From Rouxiella silvae (GTDB lineage Bacteria > Pseudomonadota > Gammaproteobacteria > Enterobacterales > Enterobacteriaceae), in NCBI RefSeq assembly GCF_002093625.1, contig NZ_MRWD01000001.1:62001-126000 (forward strand): 64,000 nucleotides of DNA, given 5' to 3'. This document shows positions 2,027 through 40,290 of the stretch, piece by piece; the stretch's first letter is position 1; each line of letters opens with the position of its first letter. Made by a program: the position numbers and the translations under genes. The notes under the pieces are model-generated. The model was not told where the DNA came from and did no database searches. It saw nothing but the letters and a program-made list of their open reading frames with translations.

Positions 2027-3181
2027 ATGAGTCTGAACGTATTTTGGTTTTTACCTACTCACGGTGACGGTCATTATCTCGGCACCAATGAAGGTGCCAG
2101 GGCTGTCGATCATGGCTATTTGACACAGATTGCGCAGGCGGTGGATCGCCTCGGCTTTGGTGGCGTGCTGATCCCGACCGGTCGTTCATGTGAAGATTCC
2201 TGGCTGGTCGCAGCGTCGTTGATTCCGGCAACCCAGAAACTGAAGTTTTTGGTAGCACTGCGTCCAGGCATAATTTCGCCTACGCTGGCGGCGCGTCAGG
2301 CGGCCACGTTGGACAGGCTGTCCAACGGGCGAGCCCTGTTTAATTTGGTCACCGGCGGTGACCCGGAAGAGTTAGCGGCCGAAGGGTTGTTCTTAAACCA
2401 TGAAGAACGCTATGAGGCCGCAGCCGAATTTACCCATATTTGGCGCAGAGTGCTTGAAGGTGAAACCGTGACCTTCGAAGGCAAACACATCAGTGTGAAA
2501 GGCGCGAGCCTGCTGCATCCGTCGGTGCAAACCCCTCGCCCACCGCTCTATTTTGGCGGCTCGTCCGAGGCGGCGCAGGAACTCGCGGGTGAACAGGTGG
2601 AACTTTATCTAACTTGGGGTGAGCCGCTGGCGCAGGTCAAAGAAAAAATTGAGCAGGTGCGTGCCCAAGCGGCTAAACATGGCCGTACAGTAAGATTCGG
2701 TATTCGCCTGCACGTGATTGTACGCGAAACCACGGAGGAAGCCTGGAAAGCGGCCGACCGTTTGATAGCCAATCTCGACGATGAAACGATTGCCAAGGCA
2801 CAGGCCAAGTTCGCCAAAACCGACTCGGTTGGGCAGCACCGCATGGCGGCGTTGCACGGCGGTAATCGCGACAAACTGGAAATAGCCCCTAACCTGTGGG
2901 CGGGCGTTGGCCTGGTGCGTGGCGGAGCGGGTACGGCACTGGTCGGTGACGGTCCAACCGTGGCGGCAAGAATGCAGGAATACGCTGACCTGGGTATTGA
3001 TACCTTTGTGCTGTCAGGTTATCCGCATTTGGAAGAAGCCTATCGCGTCGGGGAACTGCTGTTCCCTCATCTCGATTTAGCCACTGAGGACGACGTTAAC
3101 GCCCCGACACGGCGCGCCATTCAGGCGCACGGCGAGCTGGTCGCCCACGACTTCGCACCTCAGCGCGTATCAGAAAGTTGA
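2027..3181 (+). CDS. ssuD: FMNH2-dependent alkanesulfonate monooxygenase
   Basis: This 384-residue bacterial-luciferase-family TIM-barrel enzyme uses FMNH2 from SsuE and O2 to cleave C1-and-longer alkanesulfonates to aldehyde and sulfite, providing sulfur during sulfate starvation. Family features include the N-terminal [27 protein letters not shown] in the central barrel, [16 protein letters not shown], and a conserved C-terminal [21 protein letters not shown]. It starts after AAAAAGGA and sits 10 bp before ssuC. Length agrees with E. coli (381). Confidence 0.96.
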
Positions 3182-3191
3182 GGACCACAGT

Positions 3192-3986
3192 ATGAGCACC
3201 AAAACTGAGCGCTGGTTAGACAGAATTAGCCCGTGGGTGTTGCCGGTAGTGTTACTCGCCGCTTGGCAGCTGGCGGTGGAAGCTGGCTGGCTTTCAAACC
3301 GCATTCTGCCCGCCCCGAGCGCCGTGGTAGAGGCATTTTGGACGCTGGCAAAATCCGGCGATCTGTGGCAAAACCTGAAAATCAGCACCTTTAGAGCGTT
3401 AACCGGCTTTGTTATTGGCGGCAGTATAGGACTGCTGCTCGGCTTTATCACTGGGCTTTCCCGCTGGGGCGAGCGCCTGCTGGACAGTTCGATGCAGATG
3501 CTGCGTAACATCCCGCATCTTGCGCTGATCCCATTGGTCATTTTGTGGTTTGGTATTGATGAGTCCGCCAAGATTTTTCTGGTGGCGCTGGGTACGCTTT
3601 TCCCGATTTATCTCAACACCTATCATGGCATTCGCAATATTGACCGCGGTCTGCTGGAAATGTCGCGCAGCTACGGACTTTCCGGATTCCCGCTGTTTAT
3701 TCAGGTCGTGCTGCCCGGCGCACTGCCGTCAATTATGGTTGGCGTGCGCTTCGCCCTCGGCTTTATGTGGCTGACGCTTATCGTAGCAGAAACGATTTCT
3801 GCCAACTCCGGCATCGGTTATCTGGCGATGAATGCCCGCGAATTCTTGCAGACAGACGTCGTCGTGGTGGCGATTGTGCTTTACGCCATTCTTGGCAAAC
3901 TGGCCGACATGCTGGCACGAGCGCTAGAAAGCGTTTGGCTGCGCTGGCATCCCGCCTACCAGAAGAAACAAGGAGAGGAAGCATGA
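3192..3986 (+). CDS. ssuC: Alkanesulfonate ABC transporter permease
   Basis: A 264-residue inner-membrane permease with about six hydrophobic helices (the first around residues 14-32). The cytoplasmic EAA-type loop is seen around [23 protein letters not shown]. It forms the SsuC dimer through which sulfonates bound by SsuA pass. Its stop overlaps the ssuB start (ATGA, 3983-3986), indicating translational coupling. Confidence 0.94.
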
Positions 3987-4756
3987 GTGAACCCACACGT
4001 ATTCCTCAAGGCACGCCGGTCACACTGGCAGGCATTGTCAAAAATTACGGTAACCGTGCCGTCTTAAAAGATATTAATCTTCGCATCTCACCTGGGCAGT
4101 TTGTCGCGGTAGTCGGGCGCAGCGGCTGCGGCAAAAGCACGCTTCTGCGACTGCTGGCAGGTTTAGAAAAAACCACCCGCGGCGAACTGCTCAGCGGCAG
4201 CGCTCCGCTGGGCAACGTTCAGGATGATACCCGCCTGATGTTTCAGGATGACCGCCTGCTGCCGTGGAAAAAGGTTATCGATAACGTCGGTCTTGGCCTA
4301 AAAGGGAATTGGCGACCCGCGGCTCAGTCGGCGCTTGAAGAAGTCGGCCTGGCCGATCGCGCCAACGAATGGCCCGCCGCGCTATCCGGTGGCCAAAAGC
4401 AGCGCGTTGCTTTGGCTCGCGCGTTGGTGCATCGTCCTCGGCTGCTGCTGCTCGACGAACCGTTGGGCGCACTTGACGCGTTGACCCGCATTGAAATGCA
4501 AAGTCTGATTGAGCGCCTGTGGCAACAGCACGGCTTTACCGTACTGCTCGTGACACACGATGTCAGCGAAGCCGTTACCGTTGCCGACCGTGTCATTCTT
4601 ATCGAACAAGGCGAGGTCGGGCTGGATCTGCTGGTTGATTTACCGCGTCCGCGCCGCCGAGGTTCCGTGCGGCTTGCGGAGCTGGAAGAACAGGTATTAG
4701 ACCGCGTGTTGCGCCCACAGTTGCCCAATACCGAGGCCAAGCTGGCACAGCGTTAA
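3983..4756 (+). CDS. ssuB: Alkanesulfonate ABC transporter ATP-binding protein
   Basis: A 257-residue ABC ATPase. Walker A is GRSGCGKST, the signature is LSGGQKQR, Walker B with D-loop is [16 protein letters not shown], and the switch histidine is in [10 protein letters not shown]. The start at 3983 overlaps the ssuC stop and follows AAGGAGAGGAAGC. The longer upstream open frame is an overlap with ssuC in another frame and is not needed. It energises SsuC. Last gene of the operon, convergent with pepN. Confidence 0.95.
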
Positions 4757-26041: not shown

Positions 26042-26794
26042 TTACTTAGAAGCAAAGAATGCGCGGACACGTTCCAGATCTTCAGGCGTATCAACGCCAA
26101 CAGATGGAATGGCTTTGGCAACGGCAACGTGAATTTTTTCGCCGTACCACAACACACGCAGCTGCTCGAGAAGTTCAATTTTCTCAAGTGCGCTAGGCTC
26201 CCAAGTCACGTAACGACGCACAAAACCCGCGCGGTAGGCATAAATACCAATGTGACGCAGGAAGGTTTCACCGACGGTTTCTTTTGAACGAGCAAAGCGC
26301 TCGCGGTCCCACGGGATGGTAGCGCGTGAGAAATAGAGCGCGAATCCCTGTGCGTCCATCACCACTTTTACGGCGTTGGGATTAAAGGCCTCTTCAGCGT
26401 CTTCAATCGGCACCGCCAACGTGGCCATTCCAGCACCGCACTGAGCCAAATTCTCTGCAACCTGACGCACGATCACCGGTGGAATAAGCGGCTCATCACC
26501 CTGTAAGTTAACAATAATTTCATCGTCGGCAAAGCCGCAAAGCTCGATAACCTCAGCCAAACGCTCAGTACCCGACTGATGATCGGGACGCGTCATGCAA
26601 ACTTCACCCCCGGCCGCTTCAACGGCAGTCTTCACATCCGGATGATCGGTCGCCACGATGACGCGTTTGGCTCCGGATTCACGAGCACGTTCCATCACGT
26701 GTACGATCATCGGCTTGCCATTAATATCGGCCAGCGGTTTACCGGGCAATCGGCTTGAAGCGTAGCGAGCAGGAATAATGGCAATAAAACTCAT
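26042..26794 (-). CDS. kdsB: 3-deoxy-manno-octulosonate cytidylyltransferase
   Basis: A 250-residue nucleotidyltransferase making CMP-Kdo from CTP and Kdo for LPS inner-core synthesis. The N-terminal [20 protein letters not shown] is the CTP-binding loop; [14 protein letters not shown] and [12 protein letters not shown] carry substrate and metal residues. Length is close to E. coli (248). The start overlaps the ycaR stop (ATGA), so translation is probably coupled. Confidence 0.96.
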
Positions 26795-26973
26795 GGGTGG
26801 ATCTCGTCAGCAGAGAGAGAACGGGCTTCTACTTCGAGTAGCACGGGAATGCCGTCGCGAACTGGATAGGCCAGACCGTCGGCTTTGCACACCAGTTCTT
26901 GAGATTCTTTATTGAAGTACAATTTGCCATTGCAAACAGGGCAAGCAACGATTTCGAGCAAACGATGGTCCAT
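26791..26973 (-). CDS. ycaR: Trm112-like small protein YcaR
   Basis: This 60-residue protein of the UPF0434/Trm112 family begins [20 protein letters not shown] with a CPVC knuckle. The start at 26973 has a very strong AGGAGGAACT ribosome site and reproduces the E. coli length exactly. The longer open frame upstream is not supported. Its function is not established. It overlaps kdsB by four bases, as in E. coli, which suggests a conserved operon rather than a known joint role. Confidence 0.93.
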
Positions 26974-27144
26974 AGTTCCTCCTTGAGGCGTAGATAGAGC
27001 ACTCATTCTGCGTCTATAAAAACGGACAGCAGCCAAGTCATTATGGTGACAGAGAATAGCACAGCCCCCACCTGCCGTTAACTGTCGTAGCTCAAGAAGT
27101 TTACGCCTGGATATTGCGAAATACAGAGGTCAGGCGTATGATTT

Positions 27145-27166
27145 TTATGTGACACAGATCACATAA
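27145..27166 (+). promoter_or_regulatory. CRP (cAMP receptor protein) binding site
   Basis: TTATGTGA-CACAGA-TCACATAA is a perfectly symmetric 22-bp site (8+6+8) matching the CRP core TGTGA-N6-TCACA completely. It lies 24 bp before a 16-codon ORF on the plus strand and about 170 bp upstream of ycaR on the minus strand. Which transcript it controls cannot be decided from sequence. A possible -10 (TAAATT, 27164-27169) overlaps its right edge, and CAAAAT (27204-27209) is at the spacing expected for a class I site. Confidence 0.75.
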
Positions 27167-27190
27167 ATTCACCATTCAAAGAGACAAAAA

Positions 27191-27241
27191 ATGAAAGTTT
27201 TCCACAAAATCATCGCTTTGTTCGCCAACTTCAGCAATTAA
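27191..27241 (+). CDS. Possible 16-residue peptide, unrecognised
   Basis: ATG to TAA encodes MKVFHKIIALFANFSN, a short, mostly hydrophobic peptide with two lysines and one histidine near the N-terminus. AAGAGA lies about seven bases upstream. A CRP site precedes it and an intrinsic terminator follows 20 bp after the stop, with no gene in between. I do not recognise it. The 3' half overlaps a nested stem-loop, so the unit could be a small RNA, a dual-function RNA, or a coding gene. Confidence 0.35.
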   Translation: MKVFHKIIALFANFSN

Positions 27242-27290
27242 TGCTGTACGGCGAAACGTAAACGGCTGCCGAATGCAGCCGTTTTCTATT
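27216..27290 (+). ncRNA. Candidate CRP-linked small RNA
   Basis: The segment can fold into TTCGCC (27221-27226) pairing with GGCGAA (27250-27255). An inner stem CAGCA (27232-27236)/TGCTG (27242-27246) lies within it, followed by the terminator stem. The layout (CRP site, compact stem-loops, terminator, about 75-115 nt) resembles that of bacterial small RNAs. The 5' end is a guess from CRP class I spacing. No known RNA family was recognised. Confidence 0.3.
27261..27290. terminator. Intrinsic terminator
   Basis: The 9-bp stem AACGGCTGC/GCAGCCGTT with CGAAT loop is followed by TTCTATTT on the plus strand. It could also end ycaQ transcripts on the minus strand (TTTACGTTT follows there). Confidence 0.8.
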
Positions 27291-27312
27291 TAAGCTATCA
27301 AAAAACCTGCTT

Positions 27313-28542
27313 CTACTCGATTAAACTCCACCCCTCTCCCCAAAGCTGTGCTAATTCAGCAGGAATATTACCTAATTTTACCTGACTGGCTCCCTGCCAA
27401 CGAGCAAAACGGCTTATTGCATCCGCGACGTCCTTAGCACGACGAGATCCTACTGCCCCCCCCTTTTCGAGGTGCAGACTTTTGATCTCCAAAATGCTCT
27501 CTTTGCGGTGCATTTTGGCATCGGTTCGCCCAATGATTTCACCACGATTAAGAATAGGTAAGGTGAAGTAACCGTATTTACGCTTGGACTCAGGGGTATA
27601 ACACTCTATGCGATAATCAAAATTAAACAACTCGAGCGCTCTTTTTCGATCCCACACCACGGGATCAAAGGGCGAGAGCAAGGTGGTAACGGTAGAGATG
27701 ATTTTTCCACTCGCGGTTTCATTGAGCAAACTGAAGCATGACTGATGGACATACATGGGTGTCTCGATCCCTATCACCTCCACCTCAGTGATCAATCCAG
27801 CTTCCAACAACCTGGCAGTAAGTTTTTTAGCATTCACGCGTTTTAGACGGTAGTAGTCTGCTAACCATTCGATTTTGAATATACCCAACGCCTGGGCTGA
27901 ACGGCAAAGCATTTCAAACTCGGCCTCTTCTTTGCTCAGCGTATGGGTTGCATCGTCCCACTGTGGCAGCACATTTTCACGAAGATCGTATACACGATGA
28001 AAATTACGCCTTTCAACTACCATCAGATCGCCGCGGGTAAACAGTGTTTCAAGATGCTTTTTATGCGGTTTCCAGTCCCACCAGCCGCTGGTTGCACGCT
28101 TTTCTGCCTTGAAATCTGCCGATCTTACTGGGCCGTTGGTTGAAATATGTTTAAGCAAAGCCTGAATGTCGGTCTGATGTTCGTCGAACCACGCCTGATT
28201 GAACTTCCATCCCATTTTATCTGGGTCAAGCATACGATGACGCAGCAGTCGATAGTCTTCTATAGGAATGAAGCAGGCTTCATGGGCCCAGTATTCAAAG
28301 ATTTTTTGCTCAAACAGCGTGGACTCAAGCCACTCGGCGGGGTACTCACCCAAACGAATAAAAAGCACCAGATAAGGACTGCGGGCGACGACGCTAATAG
28401 TATCGATTTGCAGCAACGCCATACGCCGTATAGCTGAAAGTAGACAGTCAGGAGTTGCCAGGGTTTTTAACGGATATTGGAGTTGTTGCGCGGCGAGGTG
28501 AAGCGTGCGCGCTGCTTGGAGAGTAATACGTGGATTTGGCAT
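27313..28542 (-). CDS. ycaQ: YcaQ-type winged-helix DNA glycosylase
   Basis: A 409-residue member of the AlkX/YcaQ family (HTH_42), DNA glycosylases that unhook interstrand crosslinks and excise bulky alkyl purines in E. coli. Recognised segments are LLQIDTISVVARSPYLVLF, EYWAHEACFIP, RHRMLDPDKMGWKF, GWWDWKPHKKHLE and LLSPFDPVVWDRKRA. QIDT here corresponds to the catalytic QxD motif of the family. The start at 28542 gives MPNPRITLQAARTLHLAAQQ, aligned with E. coli (410 residues). The frame extends 15 codons upstream without a ribosome site. Confidence 0.9.
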   Translation of the reverse strand: MPNPRITLQAARTLHLAAQQLQYPLKTLATPDCLLSAIRRMALLQIDTISVVARSPYLVLFIRLGEYPAEWLESTLFEQKIFEYWAHEACFIPIEDYRLLRHRMLDPDKMGWKFNQAWFDEHQTDIQALLKHISTNGPVRSADFKAEKRATSGWWDWKPHKKHLETLFTRGDLMVVERRNFHRVYDLRENVLPQWDDATHTLSKEEAEFEMLCRSAQALGIFKIEWLADYYRLKRVNAKKLTARLLEAGLITEVEVIGIETPMYVHQSCFSLLNETASGKIISTVTTLLSPFDPVVWDRKRALELFNFDYRIECYTPESKRKYGYFTLPILNRGEIIGRTDAKMHRKESILEIKSLHLEKGGAVGSRRAKDVADAISRFARWQGASQVKLGNIPAELAQLWGEGWSLIE

Positions 28543-39204: not shown

Positions 39205-40290
39205 TTAACCGTGGCGTTTTTCAAAGTCATTCATAAACGCGGTCAAGGCCTGAACGCCTTCCAACGGCATAGCATTATAAATAGATGCACGCATACCGCC
39301 AACTACGCGGTGGCCTTTTAGCGCATGTAGACCGGCTTCCAAGGACTCTTTCAGGAACACAGCATCCAGCGCAGAATCAGCCAACTGGAAAGGCACGTTC
39401 ATGCGTGAGCGGTTAGCATCGGCAACCTGATTACGGTAGAAACCACTGCGGTCGATGGTACCGTAAAGCAACTCAGCCTTGGCTTTGTTACGTTTTTCGA
39501 CTTCGTTCAGGCCGCCCTGCTCTTTCAGCCATTTGAATACCATACCCGACAAATACCAAGCAAACGTTGGCGGGGTGTTGAACATTGAGTCGTTCTCGGC
39601 CAACACGGTGTAATCCAAAATAGACGGCAGCTCTTTGCGTGCTTTACCTAACAGATCTTCGCGGACAATAACCAGCGTCAGACCGGCTGGACCAATATTT
39701 TTCTGCGCGCCGGCATAGATAACACCAAAGCGGCTCACGTCGATAGGACGCGAAAGAATGGTTGAGGAATAGTCGGCAATAACCACTTTATCGCCAAAAT
39801 CAGGCATTTCATCAATGGCCAGACCATCGATAGTTTCGTTCGGGCAGTAGTGTACGTAAGCCGCATCTTTACTGAGCTTCCACTCGCTCATTGGCAGCAG
39901 GCCGCGTTTGTCACCCAGAGTCGTTGTGATGTCAATCACATTTGGCGTGCAATACTTTTGCGCTTCTTTAACCGCGCTGTGCGCCCAGTAGCCGCCGTCG
40001 ATATAATCGGCAGACGCTTTGTCACCCAGTAGGTTCATCGGGATCGCAGCAAACTGCGCGCGCGCGCCGCCGTGGCAGAACAGAACTTTATAGTTCGAGG
40101 GGATATTCATCAGGTCACGAATATCCTTTTCGGACTCTTCGGCTACCTGGATGAACTCCTTGCTGCGGTGACTGATTTCCATCACCGAGGTGCCGAGACC
40201 GTGCCAATTACAGAGTTCTTGTTCAGCACGACGTAAGACTTCAGCCGGGATCATCGCCGGACCTGAGCTAAAATTATAAACCTGAGTCAT
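39205..40290 (-). CDS. serC: Phosphoserine aminotransferase
   Basis: A 361-residue PLP-dependent class V aminotransferase making phosphoserine, and in the pyridoxine pathway 4-phosphohydroxy-threonine. [20 protein letters not shown] at the N-terminus and the PLP lysine in [13 protein letters not shown] are diagnostic. Length is within one residue of E. coli. It is divergent from ycaO across 276 bp, which must hold both promoters. Confidence 0.97.

Follow-up and report, generated by a model that had tools for sequence, protein, structure and literature searches.

A predicted CRP-repressed gene for a 16-residue protein between ycaR and ycaQ of Rouxiella silvae, AzuC-like in logic and perhaps in descent

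The interval between ycaR and ycaQ in Rouxiella silvae is, as judged from the substitutions that separate it from its relatives, a small-protein gene, whose 16-codon open reading frame (ORF) is under purifying selection. It lies in a stretch of 64,000 nucleotides (contig NZ_MRWD01000001.1, positions 62,001 to 126,000), termed here the window, in which all coordinates are counted. We propose, with a probability of roughly seven in ten, that it is a free-standing gene, repressed by CRP, whose product acts as an amphipathic helix on a membrane or metabolic enzyme. Coding constraint, the geometry of operator and promoter, conservation and recurrence at other loci are read directly from the sequence, and from them we infer transcription, repression, membrane binding and the metabolic-enzyme target. 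The nearest described system is the CRP-repressed AzuC/AzuCR pair of small protein and RNA, and the unit appears to represent an AzuC-like family of CRP-repressed microproteins, alike in logic and perhaps in descent.

The unit is placed on the plus strand, with ycaR and kdsB to its left and ycaQ to its right, all three on the minus strand, so that it is divergent from ycaR and convergent with ycaQ. These gene names were assigned by recognition; the Pfam families of the three neighbours are Trm112-like, cytidylyltransferase and AlkZ-like, respectively. Directly upstream of the CRP site there is a σ70-like promoter (27114–27142), absent from the preliminary description of this DNA, that is composed of the −35 element TTGCGA (27114–27119), in which TTGC is invariant in 6/6 genomes of the genus, a 17-bp spacer and the −10 element TATGAT (27137–27142), which is conserved among relatives. 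The predicted transcription start is at about 27149. The putative CRP-cAMP operator TTATGTGACACAGATCACATAA (27145–27166, no strand assigned) is centred at about +7.5, the position expected of a repressor, and is conserved in relatives. Its core TGTGACACAGATCACA, TGTGA-CACAGA-TCACA at 27148–27163, has matching flanks TTA and TAA. The 22-bp site (TTATGTGA...TCACATAA) had been called perfectly symmetric, which holds for its two 8-bp arms, perfect inverted repeats, but not for the asymmetric central 6 bp. Exact TGTGAN6TCACA occurs twice in the window against 0.07 expected, and none of 100 shuffles contained two. The second occurrence (39925–39940) lies within a 361-codon ORF, which we take to be serC, and is probably due to chance.

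The ORF MKVFHKIIALFANFSN (27191–27241, plus strand) starts 24 bp past the 22-bp CRP site, as had been described, and is preceded by the Shine-Dalgarno-like AAGAGA (27179–27184), whose AGAG run lies about 7 nt upstream. Its predicted product is a cationic peptide with an amphipathic pattern, the hydrophobic moment being reached by 56 of 5000 shuffles. The intrinsic terminator described previously as strong and 20 bp after the stop codon was likewise found, as a stem of 10 pairs (27260–27284, plus strand) beginning 18 nt past the stop and followed by the tail TTTTCTATTT, in which the U-run is interrupted. The promoter scan gave one site where 0.9 were expected by chance, and two terminator-like sites were found in 26900–27600 against 0.8 expected; as both scans taken alone are near chance, the support for these elements comes from their conservation. 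The terminator stem is invariant in 6/6 genomes of the genus, and hence offers no covariation evidence.

The preliminary description proposed a CRP-regulated small RNA, a small protein gene, or both, and held that codon-pattern substitutions would favour a peptide. Such substitutions are what we see: among 13 distinct ORFs (15 sequences from three genera) pN/pS is 0.171, and the synonymous fraction reaches 0.544 against 0.268 for column shuffles, with only 2 of 2000 shuffles attaining the observed value. The three genera were picked because they carry the peptide, and no usable ycaR-anchored locus in them was omitted. Within Rouxiella alone (5 distinct sequences) the coding signal is weaker, since 35 of 2000 shuffles reach the observed value. 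A larger test (47 distinct ORFs of 64) agrees, but its loci were mostly chosen by a degenerate codon pattern and are therefore biased, so that the three-genus test is the one relied on. A Shine-Dalgarno-like 4-mer precedes the ORF in 36 of 41 distinct units of standard register (57 distinct of 64 units in all; counted with no chance control), and in 5 of 16 units of the Serratia type (leader ending in ATG or GTG), leaving 11 with none; the copies of the Serratia marcescens group would require a GTG start.

Could the transcript act instead as a non-coding, CRP-regulated small RNA, in which the short ORF is incidental? Its size, its own promoter and terminator and a stable fold in the window would suit such an RNA. 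The fold of the whole RNA, terminator included, has a z of −3.6, and the nested stem noticed earlier (27221–27255, plus strand; 27221–27226 paired with 27250–27255, enclosing 27232–27236 paired with 27242–27246) is indeed found in the minimum-energy structure with the stop codon in its loop. The other genomes of the genus give it no support, however: in the six-genome alignment 75.8% of cells pair against a shuffled mean of 75.3%, one pair being changed on both sides. Slid versions of the stem are paired at 34.8–56.1%, below the real value, which is expected when a stem is read off one row. The structured-RNA part of the proposal was thus rejected, and the protein part stands on codon conservation, together with a CRP site that always accompanies the ORF. 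By eye, the sequence around the ORF differs among genera while the peptide is kept, and after the stop codon some other genera carry a different sequence. With codon-pattern selection on the ORF as well, the purely non-coding reading is very improbable. An Rfam scan of 26500–28000 (E up to 1) gave no match, Spot 42 included, and a known RNA family was on this ground ruled out for that interval.

The protein-coding unit is carried by 6/6 genomes of the genus. In their alignment the promoter, the CRP arms, the ORF and the terminator stem are conserved; variation is seen in the leader and from the stop codon to the terminator. A wider search of genome contigs with the codon pattern KI-I-(A/S)-(L/M-type)-F-A-N-(F/Y-type) gave 58 loci, of which three (L161, L166 and L179) were chance matches and were dropped. 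All 55 remaining loci have the unit together with a CRP site (at most one mismatch), TGTGAN6TCACA being exact in 51 and having one mismatch in 4; the 51 exact sites are the only ones in the 434.6 kb of those loci. Since the pattern made no demand for a CRP site, the co-occurrence of site and ORF is independent of the search. The hosts are Yersinia, Serratia, Rahnella, Rouxiella, Ewingella, Hafnia, Sodalis, Acerihabitans, Enterobacillus and Biostraticola, along with one record named Martelella alba and MAGs, and the peptide of the window is unchanged in 11 of 13 Yersinia loci. In Yersinia aleksiciae (L169, 2743–3259) the convergent neighbour is a cold-shock-type gene and not ycaQ, and a scan of 2700–3300 in that locus detected no terminator of the type sought.

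A profile of the 16-mer found 43 places at E 1e-6 or better in 392 genomes of the family; compared by eye with ycaR positions, 38 of the matches listed lie within about 0.6 kb of that gene and 4, all from one genus, about 4.4 kb away. An order-wide search of 335 genomes with a 25-row profile gave 14 matches at E 0.01 or better, 13 of them in the same family (the genome of the window included) and the remaining one, outside it, weak and partial, so that the peptide family seems confined to Enterobacteriaceae sensu lato. A distant BLAST search (E up to 0.1) found no DNA relative of the locus in E. coli genomes.

Two further readings assign the site or the ORF to a neighbouring gene: the CRP site might serve the divergent ycaR-kdsB operon, or the ORF might be a leader peptide attenuating a downstream gene. 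The former is in keeping with the location of the site 162–290 bp upstream of ycaR in the 18 ycaR-anchored loci that have it, and the preliminary description had noted that a CRP site kept without the ORF would point that way. The opposite was observed among 30 ycaR-anchored loci, as 18 have both the peptide and the CRP site (at most one mismatch), 12 have neither and none has one alone; hence the loci devoid of the peptide have no CRP site. The peptide was sought independently of CRP sites, and a search conditioned on them gave the same 18 and 12. In addition, the same peptide core with CRP sites adjoins other genes elsewhere. The leader peptide had already been doubted for want of a downstream gene, and rightly, since the gene that follows runs toward the unit, being ycaQ in the window and a cold-shock-type gene in the single locus of Yersinia that was examined. 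Gene orientation and the joint occurrence of CRP site and peptide led us to reject both readings, whose combined likelihood is next to negligible. One of the 12 negative loci (L037) has just 245 nt of sequence upstream; the other 11 of the 30 lack the unit although 700 nt are available there, which implies that some members of the family can do without it.

The direction of CRP control can be predicted from the position of the site. A TAnnnT hexamer ends 0–6 bp upstream of the CRP site in 55/55 relatives found by the codon pattern, and such a hexamer is so placed at 726 of 11000 random positions (6.6%) of the same loci. The centre of the site is 24–48 nt upstream of the peptide register in relatives, and 35.5 nt in the window. 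At class II promoters transcription starts about 41.5 bp downstream of the centre of the CRP site. Such a start would be located at the ORF or within it, both in the window and in every relative except L191, in which it would just precede the ORF; if the ORF is to be expressed, therefore, CRP must repress a promoter whose −10 element touches the site. Thus, given an operator that is itself predicted and that lies just downstream of the −10 element, CRP most likely represses the unit.

A CRP operator at the promoter, present in the sequence here, is also a feature of AzuC. Both AzuCR and Spot 42 are described as CRP-repressed, and AzuC as raising the activity of GlpD, in one report (PMC8672173), and AzuCR is termed a dual-function RNA in another (PMC10746267). 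In both systems CRP sites at the promoter go with a short, cationic amphipathic protein starting with MK, and a stand-alone RNA has its own terminator, 159 nt being annotated in K-12 and about 140 nt predicted here. The first 15 residues are paired by hhalign with no gap and in register, the similarity of the two profiles being weak (P 0.004, probability 8%). When the hydrophobic pattern is preserved, 26 of 5000 permutations reach the observed score against AzuC (with 22/25 and 8/9 alignment rows used), and the four permutation controls run on the 16-mer gave 2, 13, 56 and 26 of 5000. Homology of the 16-mer to AzuC is consequently only suggestive.

There are clear differences as well. AzuC has 28 residues, and its C-terminal half, containing V-P-P-G in most alignment rows, has no counterpart in the ORF, which ends at residue 16; identity with AzuC was rejected on this ground and the likeness retained. 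It also follows from the weak profile similarity and the missing half that the target of AzuC may not carry over. E. coli azuC is placed between yecJ and yecR, and by our own reading has a second CRP-like site between the −35 and −10 elements, whereas the window has a single site after the −10. The promoter logic itself is shared by E. coli azuC and its orthologs, of which 26 of 27 units scored have two CRP-like sites, with 6 bp from the upstream site to TTG in 22. The azuC leader motif CACCTGC is missing from the window. Against NCBIfam NF033642 E. coli AzuC scores 75.9 bits and three 23-residue relatives of the 16-mer give no match, the 16-mer itself being below the 20-residue limit of that scan; our own AzuC profile had a best E of 0.9 in the six genomes of the genus, with no match at this locus. 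Moreover, AzuC and genes of the window type, or of the atpC type described below, coexist in some genomes (e.g., G009 and G031), which indicates separate genes, so that the locus is not simply azuC.

If AzuCR has a dual function, one may ask whether the transcript of the window does, i.e., whether it base-pairs with mRNAs in addition to encoding the peptide. Of 28 azuC units scanned, 18 have CACCTG, and 13 CACCTGC, among the 60 nt that precede the start codon. In Rahnella (10 of 11 units) and Yersinia (11 of 13) the core CCTGC lies within 45 nt past the stop; the 5′ leader has it in Enterobacillus, in two units of Serratia and three of Sodalis, and in several related ones, as if a segment had been kept but moved. 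This scoring covers azuC units and units of the window type. CACCTG(C) is thus common to many azuC leaders and many RNAs of the window type, at differing places (L156, L155, L191, L211; L061 at 3844–4002), and it may be a small-RNA pairing segment that changed its place. In 6/6 Rouxiella units, that of the window included, however, neither the leader nor the 45 nt past the stop contains the core, which argues against a dual function here, and only 2 of 16 Serratia units have it, 14 being devoid of it. Furthermore, the motif came to notice in these very data, its shuffle control (7–30%) was weak as short sequences mixed poorly, the nested stem is unsupported and the U-tail would presumably be poor for Hfq. 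Base-pairing by the transcript of the window is accordingly doubtful.

Other CRP-repressed systems offer a different kind of analogy. SpfP, a 15-residue peptide from the CRP-repressed Spot 42 RNA (PMC8672173, PMC11188072), is stated in the latter source to bind CRP and to block activation of specific genes. A similar feedback, in which the micropeptide would bind CRP and blunt activation of selected promoters, agrees with the length of the 16-mer and with the expected sign of CRP control. The locus gave no Rfam match to Spot 42, though, and the cationic amphipathic pattern is nearer to AzuC, hence we regard this feedback as unlikely. The peptide SpfP is probably different in sequence as well. 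VcdRP of Vibrio cholerae, according to PMC8672173, is a CRP-repressed RNA whose small protein makes an enzyme of central metabolism more active; VcdP has 29 residues and is likened here by description. Ysr206 of Yersinia pseudotuberculosis is described as CRP-bound and detected only in a crp mutant, the behaviour predicted here, and as having more than one predicted CRP site (PMC4376681); it is likened by behaviour, not by genome position. Among titles and abstracts on azuCR, on AzuC, CRP and GlpD, on atpC-glmU and on ycaR/ycaQ none describes the locus, by which we do not claim its absence from print, and none of five peptide strings occurred in the papers searched.

The peptide core recurs at other loci. 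Regions around the weaker profile places of the 16-mer were extracted, and 17 of 20 showed the ORF in a first scan and one more (L108) in a later one. Together with L020 this makes 21 loci, in which 19 units were scored; two CRP-like sites (at most 2 mismatches) are present in 18 of the units; the downstream site begins 43–49 nt before the start codon and the upstream one is 6 bp (16 units) or 7 bp (2 units) before TTG. Seven of 11 such regions inspected begin with sequence that we take, by eye, for atpD and atpC, and 5 of these end in what is presumably glmU. A small ORF (16–23 residues) flanked by CRP-like sites thus follows atpC in several enterobacteria (L094, L097, L101 and L106, at about 2000; L020, at 1501). 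The atpC-glmU interval of E. coli K-12 has neither an ORF of this kind nor a CRP-like site at 2 or fewer mismatches.

A two-ORF group, seen in 7 of 8 loci inspected (L092, L093, L095, L096, L102, L104 and L108, near locus position 2000), has a KIIAMF-type ORF of 23–25 residues behind the CRP sites, and then a 28-residue ORF before the terminator, which in L095 reads MRVVRKINQILKALGKTYRGVNPHAIFR. Of 392 genomes searched with a profile of this second peptide, 20 gave a match (E 1.5e-6 or better), none of them among the listed genomes of the genus of the window, and in 18 of the 20 the first peptide is immediately upstream (coordinates compared by eye). Its similarity to the AzuC profile covers 28 of 28 positions with no gap (hhalign P 2.3e-5, probability 76%). 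NCBIfam gave no match for the second peptide, as for the three 23-residue relatives, and Pfam nothing above the cut-off for either, the second peptide having one sub-threshold match (E 0.18). A broader scheme can tentatively be drawn from this, which we hold as a possibility against the odds: a dispersed enterobacterial family of CRP-repressed microproteins of 16–28 residues, with AzuC as one branch, in which the KIIAMF type (at this locus, after atpC and at a third locus preceding the AzuC-like 28-mer) and the AzuC type would be partners on the same metabolic step at low cAMP, several of the RNAs carrying a movable CACCTGC pairing segment.

For the locus of the window itself, the proposed mechanism is as follows. 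Its own σ70 promoter would give an RNA of about 140 nt carrying the 16-residue ORF, and CRP-cAMP bound over the first transcribed bases would repress it. At low cAMP, e.g., on glucose, CRP would leave and the protein would be made. The short cationic amphipathic helix would most likely dock on the inner membrane, or on a metabolic enzyme associated with the membrane, and adjust the activity of such an enzyme, as reported for E. coli AzuC on GlpD. Because the same protein and the same CRP switch recur in Yersinia, Serratia, Rahnella, Hafnia, Sodalis and others, the tiny protein is probably a real regulator of metabolism and not a product of chance. The prediction that it is on with glucose and off with cAMP is easily testable.

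If true, the protein would be among the shortest conserved bacterial proteins, and would belong to the CRP regulon across the Yersinia-Serratia-Rahnella-Hafnia-Sodalis lineage. Proteins of such size are passed over by routine gene callers. AzuC, described in E. coli, would be set within a family in which a two-peptide arrangement occurs naturally, a hint that the peptides may act jointly, and the shorter versions in the family would help to locate the part that contacts the target.
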